A DNA stretch of 64,000 nucleotides, from contig CANFOL010000010.1 in assembly GCA_947448695.1 (NCBI GenBank), forward strand, positions 1-64,000, written 5' to 3'. Position numbers and translations under genes: made by a program. The notes beneath the pieces were generated by a model, which worked only from the letters and a program-made list of their open reading frames with translations, had not been told where the DNA came from and did no database searches. Numbering within the stretch: the first letter of the stretch is position 1; every line of letters begins with the position of its first letter. The stretch is from Burkholderiaceae bacterium (lineage in GTDB: Bacteria > Pseudomonadota > Gammaproteobacteria > Burkholderiales > Burkholderiaceae). Shown one piece after another: positions 1-4,126 of this stretch.

Positions 1-1
1 G

Positions 2-1876
2 AGTAGCAAAGTGTATGACGGTACAACAGCGGCAGTCGTGAGTGGCACAGCAGCTTTAGCAGCGACAGAAACTGCTGGCACTGGAACGAGTTCGGATGGT
101 AAAGCCTATACCGGTGATACGGTGAGTCTGACCGGAACGGCAGTTGGCACATACAACAATAAGAATGTAGCGTCAGCTTCAATGGTGACTTACAGTGGTT
201 TAAGCTTAACGGGAGCGCAGTCTGGTAACTACACGCTGACAATTCAGAATCCAGCGGATGCAACGATTACAGCTAAAGCAGTCACAATTACAAATAATGC
301 CAGTACTACGACTTACGACGGGACTATTAGTTATGCTTCCTTGGTATCAAATGCTGGATTTATCAATACATCTATGGTTGGTTCTGATGCTATTGGTTCA
401 GTAACTCAAGCTATTTCATCGATTAATAATCAAACTTTAAACGGCTTAGCACAGGCAGGATCTTTTGTATCAACCCCAAGTGCTGCTTTATTATCAACTG
501 GCATTGCTAATAACTACAACTTCTCATATGTTGCCGTCAACAATACCGTAAATAAAGCACCTTTGGGTATCGTTACATCGGGAACTTATAGCGGTACTAC
601 AACGATTTCGTCTCCTAGTGTTACTGCTTATGGATTACAGGGTAGTGATACTTTGACAGGATTTACAAGTGTGACGGTTAATACAAAGAATGTATTGGAT
701 AACAATACGAATTATGTGACAACACAGTCTGGAGTTGTTGGAACAGCTAATCTAAATAACTACTCAATCACGAATGGATCACGGAATGCAGGAACTGGGA
801 CTACTGCGAACTCTATTATCCTAAGTCCTGCAGCATTGGGCATTGCTGTAAGTGGAACTTACACGGGTACTACGAGTATTGGGCCTGTAAATGTCACTGC
901 GTATGGCTTACAGAATGGTGAGACTTTGACCGGATTTACAAGTGCAACTGCTAATACGAAGAATGTTGTGGACAATAGTACGAATTATGTAACAGTACAA
1001 TCTGGGGTGGTAGGAACAGCTGATCTAAATAATTATGCGATCACGAATGGAGCACGAAATGCCGGGACTGGAACTACTGCAAACTCGATTACTCTAAGTC
1101 AGGCGCCATTAACTATTACCGCTACACCAAATACAAAAACCTTTGATGGTTCAGTTTCAGCCCTCAGTACACCAACAGTTAGTGGCTTAAAGGGTTCTGA
1201 TACTATTTCGAATCTCACTGAAGTTTATGAGAGTTTTATCGCCGGGGTTAATAAAACATTAAATGTTTCAAATTACTCTATCAATGATGGAAGTGGTGGA
1301 GCTAACTATAGAACAACTTTAGTTGCTAATTTAAATGGAACAATTAATGTTATTCCAACCGTCATACTCCCACCAGTTGTTACAAATGCACCGCCTGTTT
1401 CTTCGGCACCCCCTCTTAGTACAACTGCGATAACTTCCACAGCGGTTGTCTCGAGTGCTCCAGTTGTTACTGCTGGTTCTGCAGGACCAGCATCAACAGT
1501 CACTTCTGCAGGAGTTTCAGTAACTACTGTAAATAATCCAAGTCAGTCCTCTACAGGACTTATAGTAGTCACTGTACCTCAAAGTACAGCCGTCTCTGGA
1601 ACTGGCCTTACAATTCCAATTCCTGAATCTGTGATTGCTCCTGGCGGAGCCGCTGGTGTAGCGCCCGGTGGAGCGCCTGGTGGAACTCCACAAAATAATA
1701 CTGTAGCAGTTACTATGAGTAATAACGATCCTTTACCATCTTGGATTTCATATGATGTTGCAAGTAAAACACTGGTTACTAGTGCGGTCCCAAGTGGTGC
1801 TTTACCAATGTCTGTTGCAGTAACTGTGGGAGGTGTTAAAACTCTTATTGAGATATCCGAATCGCAGAATAAATAG
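2..1876 (+). CDS. Filamentous-haemagglutinin/MBG (YDG) repeat adhesin-like protein, C-terminal part (truncated by left window edge)
   Basis: Frame open to the left edge (SSKVYDGTTAA...); repeated YDGT/SGNYTLT-type motifs, Ser/Thr/Asn-rich, proline-rich linker, C-terminal Ig-like segment. Confidence 0.85.
   Translation, partial: SSKVYDGTTAAVVSGTAALAATETAGTGTSSDGKAYTGDTVSLTGTAVGTYNNKNVASASMVTYSGLSLTGAQSGNYTLTIQNPADATITAKAVTITNNASTTTYDGTISYASLVSNAGFINTSMVGSDAIGSVTQAISSINNQTLNGLAQAGSFVSTPSAALLSTGIANNYNFSYVAVNNTVNKAPLGIVTSGTYSGTTTISSPSVTAYGLQGSDTLTGFTSVTVNTKNVLDNNTNYVTTQSGVVGTANLNNYSITNGSRNAGTGTTANSIILSPAALGIAVSGTYTGTTSIGPVNVTAYGLQNGETLTGFTSATANTKNVVDNSTNYVTVQSGVVGTADLNNYAITNGARNAGTGTTANSITLSQAPLTITATPNTKTFDGSVSALSTPTVSGLKGSDTISNLTEVYESFIAGVNKTLNVSNYSINDGSGGANYRTTLVANLNGTINVIPTVILPPVVTNAPPVSSAPPLSTTAITSTAVVSSAPVVTAGSAGPASTVTSAGVSVTTVNNPSQSSTGLIVVTVPQSTAVSGTGLTIPIPESVIAPGGAAGVAPGGAPGGTPQNNTVAVTMSNNDPLPSWISYDVASKTLVTSAVPSGALPMSVAVTVGGVKTLIEISESQNK
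563..1108 (+). repeat. In-frame tandem duplication, 2 x 273 bp (91 aa) within the adhesin ORF
   Basis: LGI(V/A)xSGTYxGTTxI...AYGLQ...LTGFTS...NTKNV...TNYVT.QSGVVGTA.LNNY.ITNG.RNAGTGTTANSI.LS occurs twice; copies start at 563 and 836, next segment at 1109. Confidence 0.9.
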
Positions 1877-2014: not shown

Positions 2015-2830
2015 ATGAAATTACACTTAAAAAAACTAATTCCCTTAGCTTTACTTCCCTTTTTTGTTGCGACTGCCTTTGGTCAAGGAACAGGATCAAC
2101 TTTGTTGACGGTTAACGGTACCAAGATAACAAATGTAATGCTCAATGAAAGTGTTAATAATGCAGTTGCAGAAGGTGCCAAAGATACCCCCGAGTTACGA
2201 CAAACAATTTTGAATGATTTGATTCTTCGTGAAGCCATTTCTCAAGATGCTAAAAAAACAGGTTTGTTAACAAGGGGGGATAATGCACTTCGATTAAAAC
2301 TTGCTCAGCAAAATGCTATTTTGGAACTCTGGTTCGCTCAATACTTTAAAAAAAATCCTGTAACAGAAAATGATATTTACGCTGAATACGATAAACAAGT
2401 TGAGATAAGTAAAGATCTAAAAAGTGCCAAAGAATATTTAGTGGCTCAAATTCTCGTTGCCGATGAAGTTACTGCCGTAGATTTAATTAAAAAAATCAAT
2501 AGCGGAACCCCCTTTGATGAGCTGGCTAAGACAAATTCTTTAGATAAAACTTCAGGTTTGCAAGGGGGTGTAGTTGGATGGATATTACCAAATCAGCTTA
2601 TACCCCTTGTAAGCGAAGTCGTGCCAAATTTATCTAAAGGCCAGGTTAGTCAAAGCGCTATTAAAACAGTAAATGGCTGGCACATTATTAAGGTCCAAGA
2701 CATTCGACCGTTTGTCATACCTAGTTTTGATCAAAGTAAAAATGCTATTGTTCAGCGCCTTGTTCAGCTAAGACGTCAAGAGGCTGCAAATGCTTTGATG
2801 CAGAGCGTCAAAGTTGTTAAATCAAATTAA
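2015..2830 (+). CDS. Secreted parvulin-type peptidyl-prolyl cis-trans isomerase (SurA/PrsA-like)
   Basis: Signal peptide (MKLHLKKLIPLALLPFFVATAFGQ), parvulin core VAQILVADE...GGVVGWILPNQLIP...GWHIIKVQDIRPF; ORF track start 2000 is TTG, ATG at 2015 preferred. Confidence 0.85.
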   Translation: MKLHLKKLIPLALLPFFVATAFGQGTGSTLLTVNGTKITNVMLNESVNNAVAEGAKDTPELRQTILNDLILREAISQDAKKTGLLTRGDNALRLKLAQQNAILELWFAQYFKKNPVTENDIYAEYDKQVEISKDLKSAKEYLVAQILVADEVTAVDLIKKINSGTPFDELAKTNSLDKTSGLQGGVVGWILPNQLIPLVSEVVPNLSKGQVSQSAIKTVNGWHIIKVQDIRPFVIPSFDQSKNAIVQRLVQLRRQEAANALMQSVKVVKSN

Positions 2831-3057
2831 CTTTTTAAATTTATACCGAAAGATTTTAGACTTGCAACAACTAAATCCAAAATACCTTTATCAATATTCA
2901 TATCCTAGCTACAATTTTGAGCGTGCAAAATAGGTGTAAAAGGTTTTAAAGAACAAGTTCCTTCAAGCTTTAATGAAGCTATGTTTGCTATCGTTAACAA
3001 TAGACAACAAAAACTCTTTAATTTATTTTTCTTAAATGGTTTTATTGTTGATACTAG

Positions 3058-3134
3058 TACTGTTGAACCGCAGGATAGAACCTGCGTCCGTAAATCCTTC
3101 ACAAAAAGTTCTAGATACTTAGATAAATCAAATG
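3058..3134 (-). repeat. Diverged partial copy of the ssrA (tmRNA) 3' end, candidate displaced att half-site
   Basis: ttgaaccgcaggatagaacctgcgtccgtaaatccttcacaaaaagttctagatacttag aligns to the true tmRNA 3' end at 3768-3844. Confidence 0.8.
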
Positions 3135-3511
3135 GAGGCATAGCCTTCAATTTCAATTAAAAACCTTGGATCTGCTAAGGCTGAAACCACAATAAGCGTT
3201 GAAGCTGGGCAATGACCTTGAAGATATTTTGCTCTGATTTCTATAAAAGTTTTGATTTGCTGTGGGTTGGTTAAATATGAGTTAATTTTAATTAGGTTTT
3301 TTATTGACATGCCCGATTCTTCAAGGATGGCAACTATATTGCCCCATACAACCTCACATTGCTCAATCAACGAGTCTGAGACAGTGCCATCAGATTTGAT
3401 TGCAACCTGACCAGAGATAACTAAGAATTTGGATGCTTCAGTAACTAGAACACCGTGAGAATATGTTCCATTAGGTGCTGATATGGTTTTAGGGTTTAAT
3501 AATTGAATCAT
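3128..3511 (-). CDS. RidA/YjgF/Rid-family protein (enamine/imine deaminase-like)
   Basis: MIQLLNPKTISAPNGTYSHGVLV...VISGQVAIKSDGTVSDSLIEQCEVVWGNIVAILEESGMSIKNLIKINSYL...HCPASTLIVVSALADPRFLIEIEGYA; ORF extends upstream to 3571 but ATG at 3511 fits the family. Confidence 0.85.
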   Translation of the reverse strand: MIQLLNPKTISAPNGTYSHGVLVTEASKFLVISGQVAIKSDGTVSDSLIEQCEVVWGNIVAILEESGMSIKNLIKINSYLTNPQQIKTFIEIRAKYLQGHCPASTLIVVSALADPRFLIEIEGYASI

Positions 3512-3767
3512 GTTTTTCGAGCCGTTAATTTGATTATTTTCTTCATAAAATACCCTTATTTTTCTTCCCAAGACTTTACTCTAATATATGGCAAATTAAA
3601 GTTGGCGATATACCTATAAGTTAAACAAGTTCTCTCTTATGACATATTAACGCCTTAAATTTGAGGTGTAAATCGGGTATAAGATAGGTATAAGTCTCAA
3701 GAGGTGGTTTTGATACCGCCCCTTGAGGTTTACTCTGCTTGACTTGCTGAAAGTCAACGATTTTTAT

Positions 3768-4126
3768 TGGTGGAACCGGCGGGAATCGAACCCGCGTCCG
3801 CAAATCCTCTACATAAAGTTCTACATACTTAGTCATATCATTTGATTTAACCAATGAAGCACGGACTGACACGTTATTCATTAGCGATTCACTAAGTTTT
3901 CGAACTATTTATCGTGACGCAAAATAGTCTTATCTCTTGTATATGACCCTGATGTAACTTGCGTTACCTGACCCAAGAGAGAATCAGTTCAGGGGCAACC
4001 GCAATTAAGCGGCTAGTGCGAAACGTTCGTCGTTTGCAGTTATTACAATCCCATTGATTTACGAGATAACGGGTCCTCGGTATGCCCTTCATGCTTCGCA
4101 ATCCACGTCGAAACCAAGTCGGTCCC
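3768..4126 (-). ncRNA. ssrA: Transfer-messenger RNA (tmRNA)
   Basis: Minus-strand 5' GGGACCGACTTGGTTTCGACGTGG..., 3' ...GCGGGTTCGATTCCCGCCGGTTCCACCA; acceptor ends pair; tag ORF GCAAACGACGAACGTTTCGCACTAGCCGCTTAA = ANDERFALAA* at 4005-4037. Confidence 0.96.

Follow-up and report, generated by a model that had tools for sequence, protein, structure and literature searches.

In the genomic islands described by Islander, the two ends of an insert are recognized by a regenerated tDNA and by a displaced 3′ fragment of the target gene that keeps its orientation, and the tmRNA gene is the most enriched target (Hudson et al. 2014, PMC4383910). In Dehalococcoides, the islands at the tmRNA gene ssrA lie in tandem behind a single ssrA, show repeats of the ssrA 3′ end and in several cases have no integration module; here, the enzyme is a serine recombinase, the repeat measures 20 bp, and insertion takes place in the T-loop (McMurdie et al. 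2011, PMC3146451). Judged by titles, the papers searched yielded no earlier report on genomic islands at tmRNA in Polynucleobacter, the genus of freshwater bacteria to which the host of the present locus belongs.

The locus lies near the start of the window, i.e. the whole stretch of 64,000 nucleotides that was analyzed, on contig C10 of a 2.6-Mb genome. The nearest relatives by ssrA within our search set, which comprised 186 genomes of this one genus, are G124, G177, G146, and G180. Like the Islander islands (PMC4383910), the window contains an intact target gene and, downstream of it, a 3′ fragment that is displaced but oriented in the same way, as is characteristic of a site-specific tmRNA island. 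The ssrA gene (3768–4126, minus strand) is complete according to ARAGORN and Rfam (RF00023, 227 bits) and encodes ANDERFALAA as its tag; the 3′ end that it now has, at 3768, is the new tail. About 0.7 kb away, blastn and pairwise alignment revealed a decayed copy of the ssrA 3′ end at 3061–3130 (minus strand), which corresponds to about positions 287–359 of the tmRNA. Positions 3062–3130 align with 3770–3840 of ssrA in the same orientation with 56 of 71 columns identical (79%) and two gap positions (E = 4e-11 in the 64-kb window), and the local score of 68 compares with a maximum of 32 among 500 shuffles of 2831–3767. This agrees with the original prediction of a second, diverged copy of the tmRNA end, the location of which stands, while the proposed span of 3058–3134 overshot by a few bases at either end. 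Searching 2900–3760 with the tmRNA model gave no Rfam match even at a lax threshold, because the copy is too short and too decayed for this model.

Homology to the ssrA tail is readable as far as 3061. At the other end of the copy, the outer 22 nt (3109–3130) match the downstream flank of ridA in G166 at 20 of 22 positions and ssrA at 18 of 22 when compared by eye, so that these 22 nt may derive from a ridA flank rather than from ssrA and the certain ssrA-derived part amounts to about 50 bp. Even when they are removed, the copy scores 44, and shuffling the 3.8 kb downstream 1000 times gave no more than 34. Across the genus, a search with a 24-nt pattern that allowed up to three mismatches found two copies of the ssrA tail only in G000, G021, and G056, and both copies in G056 are located at contig ends, i.e. 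at an assembly break. Several drafts have contigs that break off at the ssrA 3′ end or shortly behind it (G157:C27, L101; G056:C34 and C191, L102 and L103; G145:C71, L089), and island counts from draft genomes are therefore lower bounds.

The T-stem of the copy (3070–3085) has kept its perfect pairing (GCAGG/CCTGC; ssrA at 3779–3795 has GCGGG/CCCGC), with one G-C pair converted to A-T by changes on both sides. A pairable T-stem is also retained in the fragments of G148 and G021. The retained pairing in the copy may reflect chance, conversion or a formerly functional tail.

In order to read the copy as a displaced end, the uninterrupted site in relatives is of central importance. In G146 and G180, an intact ssrA is directly followed by GTACTAGTATTACAAACACCCAGCTTTAACAATAAAACCCTTTAAG...CTTAAAGGGTTTTTT, and the ssrA tail and flank of G146 align with 2969–3060 plus the copy of the window at 75% identity over 183 columns (E = 3e-30). 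We refer to this flank, which occupies 2969–3060 (minus strand) in the window, as type T1; it is joined to intact ssrA in G145 as well, so that an empty site connecting the target with the far flank is present in G146, G180, and G145. Against the window flank, the T1 flanks of seven genomes reach scores of 63–98, compared to shuffle maxima of about 44. The T1 hairpin in G146 is strong and terminator-like (−19.9 kcal/mol, z −3.1), while its counterpart in the window is decayed (−10.3 kcal/mol, z −1.3). These comparisons support the view that 3061–3130 is the displaced 3′ end, because intact ssrA runs straight into T1 sequence in G146 and G180. The outcome is in line with what had been proposed from the window sequence: the relatives join intact ssrA directly to the sequence beyond the copy, and in them the flank does come with the tmRNA.

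The present ssrA is followed by a flank of another type, T2 (3676–3767, minus strand), which contains strong hairpins (fold −25.2 kcal/mol, z −4.4). It is related to the ssrA flanks of G124 and G177 (scores of 48 and 45 versus shuffle maxima of 37 and 39), a similarity that is significant, although modest. T1 is found at ssrA in the more distant relatives G146, G180, and G145, and T2 in the closer relatives G124 and G177. T1 is therefore the older of the two in this group, and T2 arrived later.

We found that ssrA is an island hotspot in Polynucleobacter. P4-like integrases are located 162–194 bp past the CCA of ssrA in ten genomes, as determined by PF00589 search and tblastn, which bears out the premise that the tmRNA 3′ end serves as an integrase target here. 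The integrases are of full length in eight of them (G143, G141, G041, G103, G015, G099, G028, and G090) and truncated in G111 and G131; their domains were verified by Pfam in four of the ten genomes. Five of the islands (G143, G141, G041, G103, and G015) share with the window both the target and the T1 flank type, which is followed by an integrase of 400–420 residues at 176–194 bp past the CCA; in G143, G141, and G015 this protein shows Arm-DNA-bind_3, Phage_int_M, and Phage_integrase domains. The flank of G141 is only weakly similar to that of the window, its score being reached by 21 of 1000 shuffles, but it aligns with other T1 flanks. A second integrase family, situated 162 bp past the CCA in G099, G028, and G090, is represented by truncated genes in G111 and G131. 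A motif search for integrases behind ssrA was negative in 20 relatives, a set that did not include the integrase-bearing T1 genomes.

The far ends of four islands became apparent against the gene order that is conserved behind ssrA: CGCCGACTCCACCA in G015 and G090, CGCCGACCCACCA in G141, and GTTCGATCTCCGCCGACCCACCA in G099. Each consists of a 3′-terminal tmRNA fragment (14–24 nt) and a core flank that adjoins the conserved neighbor gene. The far ends in G141 and G099 have lost one base, similar to the small deletion close to the discriminator that is noted for some Islander islands (PMC4383910). Where both ends or the conserved neighbor could be placed (L092 in G015, L100 in G141, L148/L149 in G099, and L162 in G090), the islands measure about 10–37 kb; for the islands in G103, G041, and G143, no far-end fragment was found. 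In G015 and G141, the T1 flank after ssrA is unlike the core flank at the far end, which reflects the same displacement principle that we invoke for the window. We also considered T1 as simply the native core flank and rejected this, given its association with integrases and the fact that the core flank, T8, turns up at the far ends of islands; these comparisons indicate that T1 is element-borne in the integrase-bearing genomes.

The window differs from these integrase islands in several respects. In the islands, an integrase is present, the far-end fragment is 14–24 nt long where mapped, and the size is about 10–37 kb, whereas the inserted segment of the window (3131–3767) measures only about 0.65 kb, contains no integrase gene, and would fail both the integrase filter and the 2-kb length filter of Islander (PMC4383910). 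A profile search gave no PF00589 match on contig C10, and tblastn found no integrase remnant in the 3.8 kb downstream of the window's ssrA. Since an integrase is absent from the contig, we regard the site as a scar or remnant rather than as a complete island. Additionally, the repeat of 50–71 bp exceeds the 14–24 nt that the integrase islands of the genus leave behind. The interval 3135–3767 may be the rest of an element that once had an integrase, but the tyrosine-integrase remnants to be sought in it did not appear. Relatives of two queried ssrA integrases were likewise not found by tblastn behind ssrA, either in the T2 genomes G124, G177, and G021 or in the genomes with a junction of ridA and tmRNA. 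The contrast with Dehalococcoides is of another kind: the integrase islands of Polynucleobacter carry P4-like tyrosine integrases, and the repeat of the window is 50–71 bp long and decayed.

The only recognizable gene of the inserted segment is ridA-like (3128–3511, minus strand; Ribonuc_L-PSP, PF01042, E = 1.8e-20). It starts with an ATG at 3511, with a longer open reading frame beginning at 3571, and its stop codon (3128–3130) falls within the tmRNA copy. Genes of comparable similarity occur in 8 of the 186 genomes, and ridA is not a conserved neighbor of ssrA, i.e. the conserved synteny that would have spoken against an integration origin is absent. The homology block around ridA spans 380–546 bp and has mostly unrelated surroundings across genomes. 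The ridA gene of the window is 86.9% identical to that of the near relative G177 and 85–87% identical to those of the distant group of P. rarus and P. kasalickyi, even though identity falls to 60–74% for gph and ubiG in this group; this equal distance to near and far relatives points to horizontal movement. In public metagenome data, a contig with a Polynucleobacter-like ridA bears the title Thermoflexus hugenholtzii and another one with a 51% relative bears the title Bordetella parapertussis; both titles look wrong (L204, L207).

A comparable architecture was observed in independent isolate genomes. In P. rarus MT-CBb6A5 (G042), P. kasalickyi VK13 (G021), and G148, ssrA is followed by cargo that varies, then by ridA and, after about 100 bp, by a tmRNA fragment (positions 295–359, 78–82%). 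These fragments start at position 295 with a left flank unlike that of the window, where the boundary lies at about positions 287–308, and the integrase islands of the genus retain the last 14–24 nt. The flank past the fragment is T1 in the window and of another type in these three genomes. Furthermore, a second displaced end is present in G148 (L082), consisting of GCCGGTTCAACCA and a second copy of its ssrA hairpin, and in the interior of the G021 locus, consisting of CCACCA and T2. One displaced end is therefore in view in the window, where the contig start limits the view, and two each in G148 and G021; the extra ends argue for tandem addition of insertions at ssrA in this group.

Two further details were noted in these genomes. 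In G148, a glycosyltransferase islet lies between ssrA and the decayed tail with the hairpin copy, about 1.1 kb past ssrA. In G021 (L081), 22 nt of the tmRNA core (positions 324–345) are repeated exactly, but inverted, between ssrA and ridA, also about 1.1 kb past ssrA.

Taken together, we consider the locus to be a decayed tmRNA-island scar that probably goes back to an insertion at ssrA, most likely by site-specific integration. The former ssrA 3′ end (3061–3130) would have stood directly before T1 (2969–3060), an arrangement that G146 and G180 have kept. An insertion within this end would then have brought a replacement tail, the T2 hairpin flank, and a short cargo, of which ridA survives, and would have moved the old tail together with the old terminator to the far junction about 0.7 kb away, where both decayed. 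Site-specific integration in the manner of tRNA and tmRNA islands is the most likely agent, with the integrase and most of the cargo being lost afterwards, and we infer that an integrase made this insertion. T1 itself is of a type that arrives elsewhere in the genus with a P4-like tyrosine integrase. Because of this association, the window probably records at least two successive tandem insertions at one target, and T1 would have arrived with an integrase in the lineage of the window, too.

While our comparisons establish that the tail was displaced, that relatives retain an uninterrupted site, and that ssrA is an integrase hotspot in the genus, the mode of insertion has to be weighed. Site-specific integration is favored, albeit not decisively, by the hotspot and by the break near position 295, which recurs although the left flanks differ. 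The same arrangement could have arisen through uptake of DNA from another Polynucleobacter carrying an ssrA end, its own hairpin, and ridA, which recombined without any integrase and thereby duplicated the tail, with one joint in ssrA homology and the other in a short match (CTAAGTAT-TA-AA) that the ridA flank shares with ssrA. This route, which we judge to be unlikely, is consistent with the length of the repeat relative to the fragments left by the integrase islands, with the absence of an integrase or a remnant from the contig and the downstream 3.8 kb, and with the movement of ridA as a short block between mostly unrelated flanks; the flank of ridA in G166 (TGACTTATCTAAGTATCTAAAA), fitting 20 of the outer 22 nt of the copy, would offer a microhomology joint. 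It is more difficult to reconcile with the break inside ssrA that recurs in G042, G021, and G148 with another left flank, even if common descent of this junction is possible, and with the coincidence of the site with the integrase hotspot, at which new tails with new hairpins recur. We give little credence to a more general scenario for the large-genome Polynucleobacter group, according to which very short segments of one to three genes with their own ssrA tail and hairpin pile up at ssrA without an integrase, being mobilized in trans, either through P4-like integrases that other ssrA islands encode or through another recombinase acting further upstream in ssrA.

It is very improbable that ssrA, ridA, and the tail fragment represent an ancient, vertically inherited arrangement without any insertion in this lineage. 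The shared order of ridA and the tmRNA fragment in the window, G042, G021, and G148 would fit such an origin; however, ridA of such similarity is missing from 178 of the 186 genomes, G146 and G180 have ssrA joined to T1 without ridA, the flanks past the fragment differ, and ridA is about as distant from that of the near relative G177 as from those of the far relatives. The modest length of the match, taken alone, might suggest chance similarity or an assembly artefact, to which we assign next to no weight. The E value and the shuffles, none of which comes near, argue against chance, and collapsed or duplicated reads are ruled out by the differences at 21% of the columns between the copies; the presence of the same architecture in independent isolate genomes also speaks against an artefact.

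Beyond the scar, a SurA/PpiC-type peptidyl-prolyl isomerase gene (2018–2830, plus strand; Pfam, genus search) is probably further acquired cargo; its closest relatives in other genomes are sited away from ssrA. It is preceded by the 3′ part of a gene for a YDG-repeat protein (1–1876, plus strand; PF18657). The far boundary of the variable region is out of view, because contig C10 starts at the first base of the window and cuts this gene. Both genes were considered as a conserved neighbor of ssrA and rejected, as their closest relatives are located elsewhere. The two genes are adjacent (1–2830), and the relatives of the isomerase are about 60% identical, some with a second isomerase nearby.

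Overall, the locus is a decayed case of the established tmRNA-island kind and does not constitute a new kind of system. This type of event is well known, but the present case is legible step by step across relatives. It illustrates that decayed tmRNA-island scars can still be read once the integrase has been lost, and that successive insertions can be recognized by the hairpin flank behind ssrA. Our comparison across the genus identified ssrA as an island hotspot in Polynucleobacter; the underlying principle is established.
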